A stretch of 64,000 bases of DNA, taken from positions 62,001-126,000 of the forward strand of contig OZ017753.1 in assembly GCA_963969365.1 (NCBI GenBank), given 5' to 3'. Position 1 is the stretch's first letter, and the number at the start of each line of letters is the position of its first letter. The notes beneath the pieces were generated by a model that saw only the letters and a program-made list of their open reading frames with translations, did no database searches and was not told the origin of the DNA. Below, piece after piece: positions 16,440 through 22,605 of the stretch. The stretch comes from Asterochloris sp. CNOR1 (lineage: Eukaryota; Chlorophyta; Trebouxiophyceae; Trebouxiales; Trebouxiaceae). The position numbers and the translations under genes were made by a program.

Positions 16440-19400
16440 ATGGCAGGCAGGCGATTGCTGCATGCCATTCCCCGGGCCCTAGCTGCTTCGGCAGGAGCAG
16501 GTGAGACACTGCTCTCAAATATGTGATCTGACGATGAGAGGTTTAGTGGTGATCTGATGATGAGAGGTTCAGAGCATGCATGTACGAGTCCCATGTCATC
16601 TGAGCTGCCTCAGGATTAACAATCTGCTCTCATCAGCCTGACATGAGCCACTGGGTGATGTCACATGTAGGGCGCCTCACTGGAGTGGCAGGTCCACTGC
16701 TGGCGGCATCAGCTGTGTGCTCAGCGGCTGCTGTCCAGGCTGTAGCAGCGCCTGAAGTGCCACTGGGGAGCCGCCCATTTTCAGCTGGGATCATCTACCC
16801 ATCCCCAGAGGCTGTGGTTGGAGCACAGGTCAGCAGCAGTCAACCATCGCCAAGGTGTACACCTTGGGCCTGTCATGGCAGAGCTGCTGCATCTCTGCTG
16901 CCCGCAACATCAGCACTTGTCCGCATGTATCAGTGACATGAAACAGCCTGCAACCCCATTCAGTGCTCCACCGTACTGCCTCAACACTGGCCCAGAATTT
17001 GCAGCAAGCTGATAGCCCTCTTGCCCCTGCAGGCGCCAGACTTTGCAGCTTCAGCCATTGTGGACAATGAGATCGACACAGTCAAGTTGTCCGACTACAA
17101 GGGGAAGTGAGTGGCTTGGCTCAGCGCGAATGGGGGCATGTGGCTCCTGCATGACTCTGCCCCTGCCTGGCAAGCTCAGGGCTGCTTGACTGCAACTGCC
17201 AACATAGAGAAGGTGCCAGGGCAGGCTTCTACATGACCGAGAGCTTCTTCTTAGAAGCATGGCTGTGCTGATGGCACGCCTTGGATGGGCCCTGCAGTCT
17301 TGCTGGCAATTACTTGCATGCCGCAGGTCCCTGGCTGCTATGGATGTCATCCAGAGTGTCACTGATTGCTGCAGGTGGGTGATACTTTTCTTCTGGCCGA
17401 AGGACTTCACCTTTGTTTGGTGAGCCCCATAGGCTTTTGTGATGTGCATTTCTGACACTTGTGGGCTGCTTGTGGCTCGCAGCGTCAAGCCTGCCGGACA
17501 CAGCTCAGAGCCAACACAGATAACCAGCTCAGCGACATATCGTCAACCGGGACTGATAGTCGTCTGGATTGTCAGAAGATTGCGTGTATCAGAAAGGCCC
17601 TGAAGAAACCCCTTTGACAGCTACATTTGTGGGAGTGATGCACGCCTGGCTGCCTGCATTGGAGATCTAAGTGCTGTTACGCTTCAAGCTGTTGGTCGGC
17701 AGCTGTCTGAGGCGTGGCTTGCCAAACAATGACAGAACTTTGTTCTACTGCCTGCAGCCCAACTGAGATCATCGCCTTCTCAGACAGAGCCAAGGAGTTT
17801 GAAAAGCTGGGGTGCCAGCTGCTTGGTGAGCTGCTCGCTGTCTGGGAGCACTGGTGGTGGCTCAGTGCCATGCCTGGGGCAGCTGAAGCTCCAGTGCAAC
17901 ACGCACCCCTGCTCAAGCAAGGCAGGGGTCCCAGTGCCTGATGAGCGCTGAGGGCGGACCTGCAGAGACAATGCACCTGCCCTGCTGCTGCCTGCCATGC
18001 CGCACACAGCAAGCGGCCCAGCAGCAGAGGCCCCTGTGGCGCACATGCTGGTGTGGGATAGCATGACCTCACAGCAAGCAGCTGTTCAGCAAAATCAGTA
18101 AAAGTTACCCTATGGTGATGGTTCAAATGATGAGTGACAGCATGATGCATTGATTGCCTGCCGCTGGCTAGAGGCACACCTGGCTTCTTCAGCTGAAGCC
18201 TCAACTGTCCAGGAGAGGGAAAGGGCAGCTGGTCGCTCACCTCCTGCCCCAGGCCCTGCAGCACCACAGGCTTTGTCTGTAATGCCCAGACGCCCTGTCT
18301 CTCTGAAGTCTTCGACTTATGGTCATGCGGTTGACTCTGATGGGCCAGCAGATGTAGCCACACGCAAAGGTCCCAGTCCAAACTTCATGCTCCAGCTAAG
18401 CGAAGTTGTCCTCCTGTAGTTCCTGACATGTGACCATGTGGCACTGACTGTGCTGGGCCAGCAGTTTCCAGCCAAAGCGAATGCCCCGGTCCCAGAGTTT
18501 TGCAGCTCAAGCTGGGCTGAGTCTAATCCTACTGCATTGCTCAGTTGTGCCTGTTTCTGCTGCAGGTGGGAGCACCGACACTGAGGAGACCCACCTGGCC
18601 TGGATCAAGACGCCCCGCAAAAAGGGTGGACTGGGCAACATTAAGATTCCCCTGATTGCTGATACCACAAAGGTATGCAGGCCTGGCCTGGCATAGGCTG
18701 CCTTTGAGGTCCCTGTACAGGTCAGTACTGACAGCAGGTAGGCGCGCAGGCTGGCCAGACACAGCGGCCGATGCAATCCCTGCTAGGTGTTGAAATCTAC
18801 ATAGGACTCTGCCAACACCAAAAGGTGCCTGGCCAGCGGGGTGCTGGCTGCCTTTGCAGTCCATGCGTCATTGTTGACAGAACCCTACATAGGATCATGC
18901 CAACACCAGAAGGTGCCTGGTTAGCAGGGTGCAGGCTGCCACTGTGGTCCCAATGCAGGTCAATGTCGGCAGCGCAGAGGTGTGCAGGCTGCGCATGTGC
19001 CAGGCACTCTGGCATGCTGTGCTGAATGACCTTGATCTCTGAGTGTGGCATTGAGACAACAAGGGTCCAAGCTGTTGCATGTGCCTGTAGCTGAGGTTTA
19101 GGGTTTAGGGTTTAGGGTGGGCAGATGTCTCATCAGTGACAGAGCTGCGATAGGGCGACTGAAGGGCTGCGCACCAATTCACAAATCCTTTCTGTGGCAA
19201 ACGAACCAGTTTGACATGGTATGATGTGTTGGTACCCTGCAGGTGATTGCGGCAAAGTATGGTGTGCTCAAGAAAGACTTGGGCGTGGCGCTACGTGGCC
19301 TGTTTGTGATCAACCCAGGTATAGCCCCAAATGTGCAGCTTGCACACCGCAGATGCCCCTGCCAGCGACTTCACAGCCGTTTAGTCTGCAGCGGCGACTG

Positions 19401-22400
19401 CGTTGAGCTCGGCTCCGTGCTTACCTGTCCTTTGCATGTAACCTGTCACTCCTTATGCCGACCATCCTCCCCCGCTTTCCCCTGGGCCGGGCATCAGCCC
19501 AGCAGGGATTCAGAGCAATCGATGTCTGATGTGCACAGAGCTGCTGTACACGAGTCCAGATGGTCTCTGTTACAGCGAGATGCCTCCCAGGCGCTGCTGT
19601 CGACCTAGCAGACAAGGGTCTTGAGCTCTGCCCCACAGCCCTGTGAAAGGCGCTCTGCGTGACCAGTGGCCCTTGCCTGCAGACGGCGACATTGAGCACA
19701 TCACCATCAACAATTTGGGCATTGGCAGGTGAGCCCTGCTCTGCACTGGGTCAAGGGTTAGAATTTCGTGTCCCTGCTCCTATCCTGCTATGGTGCAGGT
19801 CTCAGACGCACAACCTGAGATGCTGCATGACACGATAAGGCCGCAGCCTTCACCCCAGCAGCTTCAGCTCTAGGAAGCTGAACAGAGCCTCCCTCTGAGC
19901 TGTGCAGTCGGCGGTGCTTGAGGTTCCTGTGCTCTACCTGCCTGGTCGGCATAAGAGGCTGCCCGACCAGATAAGCCTGCCAGACATGTCGCGCGACTGT
20001 CTGTGTCGCAGTGCACCTTCTTTCCCCCTCTCTGCAGCCTGCTTCATGACCAGATGGGCCTGCCAGCTGTGCATCTTCACCAAGAAACTCACAAACCCCT
20101 AATCCTGTGTGGTCTGCAACGTAGCCTTCCCCTCTCTGCAGGAACGTGGACGAGGCTCTGCGGCTCCTGCAGGCCGCGCAGTTTGTGCGGGAGCATGGAG
20201 AGGTGTGTTGCAGCCTTGGCTGCATTCGGGTCGGTTGCGGCACGGGTGCCTCTGTCCTGTCGCAGTGACAGCAGCCTTGGGGGGCAGCATGTGCTGCGTG
20301 TCTTTGCTGGCCAGGTGCTGCCGCGCCAGCCTCTACAGCCCAACAGCACAGCTGCGGTCAAAAGGACATGGGCCTTGCTGATCATGCACCCTGACCTGCA
20401 CAGCACGCTGTCAGCTGTATGTGCCCTTCTGACTAGCAGCCTCACGGGAGCTCCCTGCACTGCTGCACAGCACACAGGCTTTGCTGATGGGTACAAAGCT
20501 GACCTGTGCAGCATGCTGCTCGCAGGTGTGCCCTGCTGACTGGAAGCCTGGAGAGCAGTCCCTGAACCCAGCAGAGTCCGACAAGTACTTTGAGAGCGCA
20601 AAGGCGTCGCAGGACGTGGAGGAGACAAACCTCAAGGTGGGCACTGTTGGGGCACAGGTCTCACATATGTTTTTGGGCAGCTGGGCCTCTTGCTATGGCA
20701 AGTGGTGTCACACCTGCAGTCAAGCAGCTGGGCCTTTGCTAGGGCAGATGGTTCACGCCTGGACTGAAGCGGCTACACTGTCCAGCATCACAAAGGCTAG
20801 AAACTGTCACAGCCTTACAATCTCTCGAGGAGGCAGCCACGATGCTTGAAAGTGACACGGCCTTACAGGTTATAGAGGAGGCAGCCACCTGTGCTTGGTA
20901 GCATCACAGCGTTACAAACTCTAGACAGGGCAGCTCTGAAGCGATCTGGCTGCAAAGTAGGCAAGCTGGCCATCATAGCATGTGGAGGAGACAACACAAC
21001 TTTCAGCTCTGCAGTAACAGCTTTCTGATGCAGTGCTAGGGCATGAGCAACAACTTGGGTCGTGCAATCGTCGGGCACGCACTTGTGTTGCGTGAGGCGG
21101 GTGAGTTGCTTGTGTTCTGACTCATGCAGCCTTCACTTCAACCATAATGCGATGCGTCGGGACATCCAGCGCCCAAGCAGCCACTGAAAGCAGCGCTGTC
21201 CAAGGTACAGCCGGACAGTACGCATGGAGTCTTGCTTGCACAGGAGGCTCTCAACTACTTGTGGATCTGTAGTGCCTGCTCCACACAGGCTTTGGGCAAG
21301 CCTGCCATTGGTGATGCCAAAGGCATCACATGGCGCGCTCCGTATGCGCCAGACTGCCTCACACCCACTGCAGGTGCTGACCGACAAGAAGGACTTTGAG
21401 GCGCTGATGCAGAAGCCCGGCAAGGTGGTGGTCGACTACATGGCCAGCTGGTGAGTCACCCTTGTCTCTTTGCTCCCGTCTGCTCTGCACGATCATGCTG
21501 CTGCTCTGACGCCTAGTGTCATGGGGCTTGCCTCGGCTACCCCAGACTCAAGCCCCGCTTTCTGACAGCTGACCTCGTGACAGCCACGCCTGTTGCCTTC
21601 ACTGACCCATCAATGCTCTTCAGCTTCAGCTGCTCCATTTGTTGTCCTGCTCCAGCTGCTCTGGTTGTTATTGTTGTGCTCAAGCTGCTCAGACACCCAG
21701 CCAACATCACGCACCTTTGTCCCTTCTGAGCAGTGTTCATCCTTAATTGCAGGTGCGGCAAGTGCAAGATGATCAAGCCCACCGTGGAGAAGCTTCAGGA
21801 CAAGTACCCTGACATCACTTTTGCACAGTGAGCCTTCAGCCACCTCCAGAACTAATCCTTTGCCCCCCCCGGTCAGCCTTACAACACAACAGGCCCCGCT
21901 AGAAAAGCGCCACTTCAGCGCCTCGTCCCCATTATTGCATTTGCAGAACCTGTACTGGTGCATCACATGAGACTCTGCTGCACACTGCACAGCTCTGCTT
22001 GGCATTGCCATGCATGGCTGCATGCATGGCTGCTGCGACCATATGGCCGCAGCTGTGGCAAGCTCTGGCCCATCCTGGATATAGGGCGCCCTGCTGCCAC
22101 ATATTGGCTCCTGTGAGCTGCTGCTGTGTAGCTGTCCTGCAAAATGAGGTTGGCTGCAGGAGGTGTTGTGTCCTGCCTCATTTTGGTCTTGGCAGCCTCC
22201 CAATTGGCTCCCCATCATTGGCTGTGGCCCTTGCCTGACTCCAGCTACTGTTTGCAGGTTTGGCACTGACGAGGAAAAGTTGGAGGGCCTGGCAGCAGAC
22301 CTGGGCATCAAAACGCTGCCTGCCTTCCGTTTCTACAAGGATGGCAAGGATGCTGGCATCAAGGAGATTGTTGGCTACAAAAAGAAGCCCCTGACCGATG

Positions 22401-22426
22401 CAGTTGAGGAGTTCGTCAAGCAGTGA
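16440..22426 (+). CDS. 2-Cys peroxiredoxin fused to a C-terminal thioredoxin domain
   Basis: Thirteen exons agree in phase: 16440-16500, 16614-16828, 17033-17106, 17375-17419, 17758-17825, 18566-18672, 19243-19318, 19683-19728, 20142-20202, 20526-20636, 21374-21450, 21753-21827 and 22258-22426 (TGA), predicting 394 residues. Residues 1-92 are Arg/Ala-rich with few acidic residues, like an organelle targeting peptide. The typical 2-Cys peroxiredoxin domain follows: APDF, FTFVCPTE with peroxidatic Cys132 (codon split by an intron), THLAWI, GGLG, and EVCPADW with resolving Cys253, then KYF. From residue 289 comes a complete thioredoxin fold with DYMASWCGKCK (Cys315 and Cys318), KPTVEKL and the cis-proline region [13 protein letters not shown]. 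The exon 10 to 11 join is phase 0 with no stop. The enzyme would reduce peroxides, with the thioredoxin domain as likely electron donor in cis. GGLG and YF mark the hyperoxidation-sensitive type. Domain identities are firm; the fusion rests on splicing. Confidence 0.85.
18790..18960. repeat. Diverged tandem duplication in intron 6 of the peroxiredoxin-thioredoxin gene
   Basis: Two diverged copies of about 70 bp (around 18796-18866 and 18888-18958) share the words ACATAGGA, GCCAACACCA, AAGGTGCCTGG and GCAGGGTGC-like segments. A third, weaker copy may lie just upstream near 18700. No coding is apparent. Confidence 0.6.
19097..19117 (+). repeat. Interstitial telomere-type repeat (TTTAGGG)3
   Basis: Three perfect TTTAGGG units preceded by GG lie inside intron 6 of the peroxiredoxin-thioredoxin gene. 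TTTAGGG is the plant-type telomere unit also used by many green algae. The array is short and far from a chromosome end in this window, so it is an interstitial copy. Confidence 0.9.
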
Positions 22427-22600: not shown

Positions 22601-22605
22601 TGTAA
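22601..22605 (+). terminator. Candidate TGTAA polyadenylation signal of the peroxiredoxin-thioredoxin gene
   Basis: TGTAA lies 175 nt after the stop codon at 22426. TGTAA is the usual chlorophyte poly(A) signal. The convergent HOS1-like gene ends at 22682, so the two 3' UTRs must be close or overlap. Confidence 0.5.

Follow-up and report, generated by a model that had tools for sequence, protein, structure and literature searches.

Few redox partners have been studied as closely as peroxiredoxins (Prx) and thioredoxins (Trx), and the specificity and rates of their reactions are usually treated as those of meetings between separate proteins. The catalytic cycle of a typical 2-Cys Prx links the peroxidatic cysteine of one subunit to the resolving cysteine of its partner by a disulfide, and it is this disulfide that Trx reduces. 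The motifs GGLG and YF mark the hyperoxidation-sensitive eukaryotic members of the group. NTRC is an NADPH-thioredoxin reductase (NTR) with a C-terminal Trx, and it belongs to the electron chain that runs from NADPH through NTR and Trx to 2-Cys Prx. Bacterial hybrids of Prx and glutaredoxin (Grx), such as that of Haemophilus, combine a Prx5-type peroxidase with Grx. Land-plant mitochondria use PrxIIF in place of a 2-Cys Prx.

Here, we describe a locus of the green alga Asterochloris at which one nuclear gene is likely to encode a typical 2-Cys Prx preceded by an organelle leader and followed by a C-terminal Trx that would reduce the Prx disulfide. The Prx part has FVCPTE, GEVCPA, GGLG, and YF in common with the eukaryotic Prx1/2/3 group of typical 2-Cys enzymes; however, those proteins end a few residues past YF, where the predicted protein continues into Trx. 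The fused Trx has the CxxC and cis-Pro of eukaryotic-type thioredoxins, from which it differs in its WCGKC site and in its position behind a Prx. NTRC is also a fusion within the same electron chain, but there Trx is linked to the reductase, whereas in the predicted protein its partner is the peroxidase, which would make the protein, if true, the mirror image of plastid NTRC. The bacterial Prx-Grx hybrids likewise hold peroxidase and reductant in a single chain, but they pair a Prx5-type enzyme with Grx, and the Asterochloris fusion pairs a typical 2-Cys Prx with Trx.

The locus thus appears to hold known domains in a combination for which we found no description and which may be regarded as analogous to the bacterial hybrids and to NTRC. 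A natural Prx-Trx fusion was not found in the open-access literature, of which coverage was partial, so that priority is not established; none is described in passages of PMC5354554 or PMC7539508. A natural pairing in cis would make it possible to test whether tethering accelerates reduction or changes sensitivity to hyperoxidation and whether an organelle peroxidase can be isolated from the general Trx pool. Placing Prx and Trx in one chain could let both act as one molecule.

Gene structure

The window (the whole stretch of 64,000 nucleotides that was analyzed) comprises bases 62001 to 126000 of a 3.1-Mb contig, C8, in a genome of 56.4 Mb and 21 contigs; unless a contig is named, positions are those of the window. 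The gene model has 13 exons between 16440 and 22426 on the plus strand, which join into 1,128 bases and a single closed frame of 375 amino acids followed by TGA (22424 to 22426). All 12 introns have GT-AG borders, and 10 of the 12 acceptors end in TGCAG. The features, including the frame on which a competing reading depends, are as follows.

Exon 1, 16440 to 16500, plus strand: start ATG and first portion of an Arg/Ala-rich leader; coding score of −0.41 per codon (intron-like).
Exon 2, 16671 to 16828, plus strand: remaining leader (RPFSA, residues 55 to 59) to the start of the Prx domain; coding score of −0.19 per codon.
Exon 3, 17033 to 17106, plus strand: Prx domain (APDF...).
Exon 4, 17375 to 17419, plus strand: Prx; intron 4 splits the codon of the peroxidatic Cys113.
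Exon 5, 17758 to 17825, plus strand: Prx.
Exon 6, 18566 to 18672, plus strand: Prx, with the GGLG motif inside.
Exon 7, 19243 to 19318, plus strand: Prx, RGLFVINP.
Exon 8, 19683 to 19728, plus strand: Prx.
Exon 9, 20142 to 20202, plus strand: Prx, ...REHGE.
Exon 10, 20526 to 20636, plus strand: resolving Cys234, KYF (252 to 254), and a 15-residue linker to NLK; ends in phase 0 without a stop.
Intron 10 (the fusion intron), 20637 to 21373, plus strand: 737 bases, without TGTAA; the read-through frame closes at 20847.
Exon 11, 21374 to 21450, plus strand: first portion of the Trx domain, ...DYMASW; coding log-odds of +0.65 per codon.
Exon 12, 21753 to 21827, plus strand: Trx active site, (W)CGKC.
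Exon 13, 22258 to 22426, plus strand: remaining Trx, cis-Pro (TLP), and stop TGA.
TGTAA, candidate poly(A) signal for the fused gene, 22601 to 22605, plus strand: 177 bases from the stop codon.
Competing frame, 21224 to 21373, plus strand: 50 open codons with an ATG, adjoining exon 11 upstream; coding score of −0.47 per codon.

The exons themselves are real. The N-terminus (exon 1) is the least certain part of the model, because exon 1 scores like an intron and intron 1 ends in the lowest-scoring of the 12 acceptors (TGTAG, 8.2 bits); an in-frame ATG also lies 10 codons upstream of where the full codons of exon 2 begin. Bacterial origin or contamination was considered and ruled out, given the 12 introns of the model and the size of the contig and genome to which it belongs. 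Intron 6 contains a short interstitial telomere-like run, with three copies of TTTAGGG at 19097 to 19117. TTTAGGG repeats, together with a plant-like 2-Cys Prx and the NTRC-like gene, point to a green alga.

Domains and nearest relatives

Pfam domains occur in the 375-residue protein in the order AhpC-TSA (residues 70 to 202; 142.9 bits), 1-cysPrx_C (residues 223 to 251; 38.1 bits), and Thioredoxin (residues 272 to 366; 71.6 bits against a curated cutoff of 23.5), the first two likewise scoring over their curated cutoffs. The cysteines are C37, in the leader; C113, the peroxidatic residue, within FVCPTE; C132; C234, the C-terminal resolving residue, within GEVCPA; and C296 and C299, in Trx. 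GGLG at 156 and KYF at 252, the motifs of hyperoxidation-sensitive eukaryotic enzymes, are both present. Judged by these features, the Prx half is a typical 2-Cys peroxiredoxin. In the PDB it comes closest in sequence to animal chains named Peroxiredoxin-2 (5ijt, 2.4e-76; 1qmv, 2.6e-76), and chloroplast BAS1 (5zte, 2.9e-68) lies somewhat below them.

In addition to its Pfam score, the Trx half has the CxxC of a thioredoxin, as WCGKC, and the cis-Pro, as TLP. It falls below the cutoff of the NCBIfam equivalog TIGR01068 (62.4 versus 96.8 bits), a model that serves prokaryotic annotation and is no requirement for a fused eukaryotic domain. Its top PDB matches are LAFCA and LECA thioredoxin (2ypm and 2yoi, about 7e-20), presumably ancestral reconstructions, followed by other Trx chains, and the next-best places in its own genome have 47% and 39% identity over short stretches. 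The Trp codon before CGxC is split by the intron on the 5′ side of exon 12. The same holds for three of the seven other Trx/PDI-like loci examined (present in L142, L143, and L146; absent from L028, L141, L144, and L145), and the Trx exons of the fusion gene look like the body of an ordinary Trx gene.

Evidence for a single gene

Several tests on the sequence favor one fused gene as the best gene model, and we consider a fused coding sequence highly likely. One open frame with GT-AG splice sites runs through both domains, and the joined exons contain no stop between them; the predicted peptide at the junction of exons 10 and 11 reads ...EETNLKVLTDKK.... The first-pass annotation had proposed such a fusion from an exon at 20526 to 20636 that ends in phase 0 without a stop and one at 21374 to 21450 that starts in phase 0. 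Both observations were borne out: the donor reads AAG/GTGGGC and the acceptor ends in TGCAG, with both borders of intron 10 in phase 0. The second exon had also been taken for a complete Trx domain, which is wrong, as three exons are needed (21374 to 21450, 21753 to 21827, and 22258 to 22426). The claim that Trx lacks its own ATG holds only if the intron is assumed, for the reading frame used by exon 11 stays open for 62 codons upstream and includes an in-frame ATG at 21224. The proposal of one gene stands on the closed frame and on the domain, splice, codon, and TGTAA tests, with a separate Trx that starts at 21224 as a real rival.

The end of the Prx domain is unusual for the family. Two further 2-Cys Prx genes were identified in this genome, and both have a stop in the last exon at the usual place (after SKEYFAAI and after EGLSK), whereas exon 10 of the fusion gene runs 15 residues beyond YF to a splice donor without one. 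Among 80 bacterial Prx relatives (of at least 577 loci), a stop follows the match within 28 residues in 79, and the remaining one runs off its contig.

Intron 10 ends at 21373 in an acceptor of 11.2 bits, a score matched by 0.87% of 5,294 AGs in the window, and this acceptor stands alone in 20637 to 21450, with no other within 2 bits of its score. At 7.0 bits the donor is less strong: 4.2% of 3,148 GTs do as well or better, and a donor-like site at 21101 scores 7.5. The donor hexamer GTGGGC also occurs at the apparent used donor of another gene in the genome (L146). Both splice sites of intron 10 rank second from the bottom among the 12 introns; however, intron 10 was left out of training and the other eleven were not, so the scores of those eleven are flattered by their presence in the training set. 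The splice and codon models both derive from this single gene. With 737 bases, intron 10 matches intron 5 (740 bases) in length.

Codon scores from the left-out calculation mark both flanking exons as coding (exon 10, +0.49 bits per codon; exon 11, +0.65). The read-through of intron 10 scores −0.45 per codon and is intron-like, given a mean of −0.46 and a standard deviation of 0.16 for 482 overlapping stop-free intron frames. Translation of this read-through (20637 to 20846), into which the genome search extends exon 10, slightly resembles a Trx active site, probably by chance.

TGTAA is the green-algal poly(A) signal. It is absent from intron 10 (20637 to 21373), and it is also absent from 20847 up to 22601, where the copy downstream of the fused stop codon begins. 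This evidence is soft, because TGTAA has a background of 0.47 per kb on this strand, lies within 200 bases of the stop in only two of three Prx genes of the genome (the Prx gene on C18 lacks one for 1,100 bases past its stop), and occurs once each in introns 5 and 7 of the fusion gene.

Predicted location and electron path

The first 66 residues contain 18 Ala and 5 Arg, with 1 Glu and neither Lys nor Asp, a composition that makes an organelle leader plausible. The leader and its RPF/SA sequence resemble a mitochondrial presequence with the R-3 cleavage motif, and the fusion protein is probably mitochondrial by this reading of its leader. The predicted precursor has a mass of about 40.6 kDa, which would fall to about 35 kDa on cleavage ahead of residue 58. 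A mitochondrial 2-Cys Prx in an alga would be unusual, if true, compared to the PrxIIF of land plants. The fullest form of the proposal, a mitochondrial 2-Cys Prx with built-in Trx in which a decamer is ringed by ten tethered reductants that take electrons straight from NADPH-thioredoxin reductase, as a natural fusion not previously described, is one that we advance tentatively and with some doubt.

We infer splicing in vivo, mitochondrial location, the oligomer, and the following electron path. Peroxide would oxidize C113, which, going by the chemistry of the family, would form an intersubunit disulfide with C234 of the partner. The Trx domain, tethered about 15 residues past YF, would then reduce this disulfide through the cysteines of WCGKC, either in cis or across neighboring subunits of the ring, and a separate NADPH-thioredoxin reductase would recharge it. 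The region behind YF lies near the active site and is mobile in the disulfide form; with the Trx tether starting just past YF, the predicted layout could plausibly allow reduction either inside one chain or between the two chains of a dimer.

At C5:702.7-705.7k (L140) lies an NTR-like gene whose CxxC reads CAVC. It is one of two NTR-like genes, both of which were matched exon by exon, with no single exon reaching the whole-protein cutoff of the family. The suggestion in the first-pass annotation of a self-sufficient peroxide detoxifier of an organelle must accordingly be divided. The fusion is not self-sufficient, because its Trx domain still needs electrons from thioredoxin reductase, for which the reductase-like gene lies elsewhere in the genome; the organelle role keeps its plausibility through the Arg-rich, Lys-free leader.

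Alternative readings

The open frame upstream of exon 11 could instead belong to the second of two adjacent genes on the same strand, a 2-Cys Prx that ends at 20847 or via a short exon and an organelle Trx that starts at ATG 21224 with a 50-residue leader. We consider this arrangement distinctly unlikely, although the 50-residue stretch is basic and could pass as a leader, and the stand-alone Trx L142 seems to be built in this way, one open stretch holding both its leader and its first Trx strand. The intron-like codon score of the putative leader (−0.47) does not decide the matter, as exons 1 and 2 of the accepted leader have negative scores too. Across 4,511 intron positions of the fusion gene, an equally long open run arises at about 11%, and 7% have an in-frame ATG 45 or more codons upstream; chance thus adequately explains both, yet the two-gene reading stays alive. 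What it must further accommodate is a strong acceptor placed by chance exactly where Trx homology starts, and a Prx with either a cryptic end exon or a tail of 85 codons past YF. A stop-free run of that length follows 4.8% of 4,859 intron positions, and it is not unique to intron 10, as the read-through of intron 7 extends for 96 codons. For a cryptic end exon, no comparably strong acceptor is present elsewhere in 20637 to 21450. The read-through, moreover, scores as intron, and TGTAA is missing from the stretch between 20847 and 21224.

The coding structure would also permit both kinds of product, that is, the fusion together with a free Trx from an internal promoter or start near 21224, or with a Prx bearing a 70-residue tail through retention of intron 10. 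Both additional segments score as intron, however, and we regard such dual output as very unlikely. A further alternative accepts the fused chain and assigns its Trx another task, that of a redox relay or sensor that would, for example, pass a peroxide signal from Prx to other targets rather than reduce the attached Prx. The active site is WCGKC instead of WCGPC, and changes to WCGPC can shift redox potential, which gives this idea some footing. Nevertheless, both sets of catalytic motifs are intact, and enzymes of the typical 2-Cys group are usually reduced by Trx; we therefore judge a relay or sensor role unlikely.

Other redox genes and searches for further fusions

An exon-by-exon search of the genome that scored the best candidates found no second fused copy. 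In prokaryotes, none of the 80 Prx loci kept (of at least 577) reaches the Trx part, and their flanks (up to 2 kb) gave no Trx match by tblastn with two queries at an E value of 0.001. Because these 80 loci have no Trx match in sequence or flanks, operon pairing lends no support to a Prx-Trx link. Viral contigs contain no relative of the fusion or of its Trx alone; phage Trx matches came to 88 records, all below 60% identity (20 of the 88 listed).

The second NTR-like gene, L139 (C5:1284600-1288000), combines NTR-like exons with a Trx-like exon downstream of them (APSCGPCRTLKP) and resembles an NTRC gene. The NTR CxxC pattern was not found in it, and an intron may split the site. On the same contig as the fusion, a third and more divergent 2-Cys Prx gene (L026; C8:2958000-2961300, minus strand) carries FVCPTEL and GEACPATWKPGQK and is without Trx.
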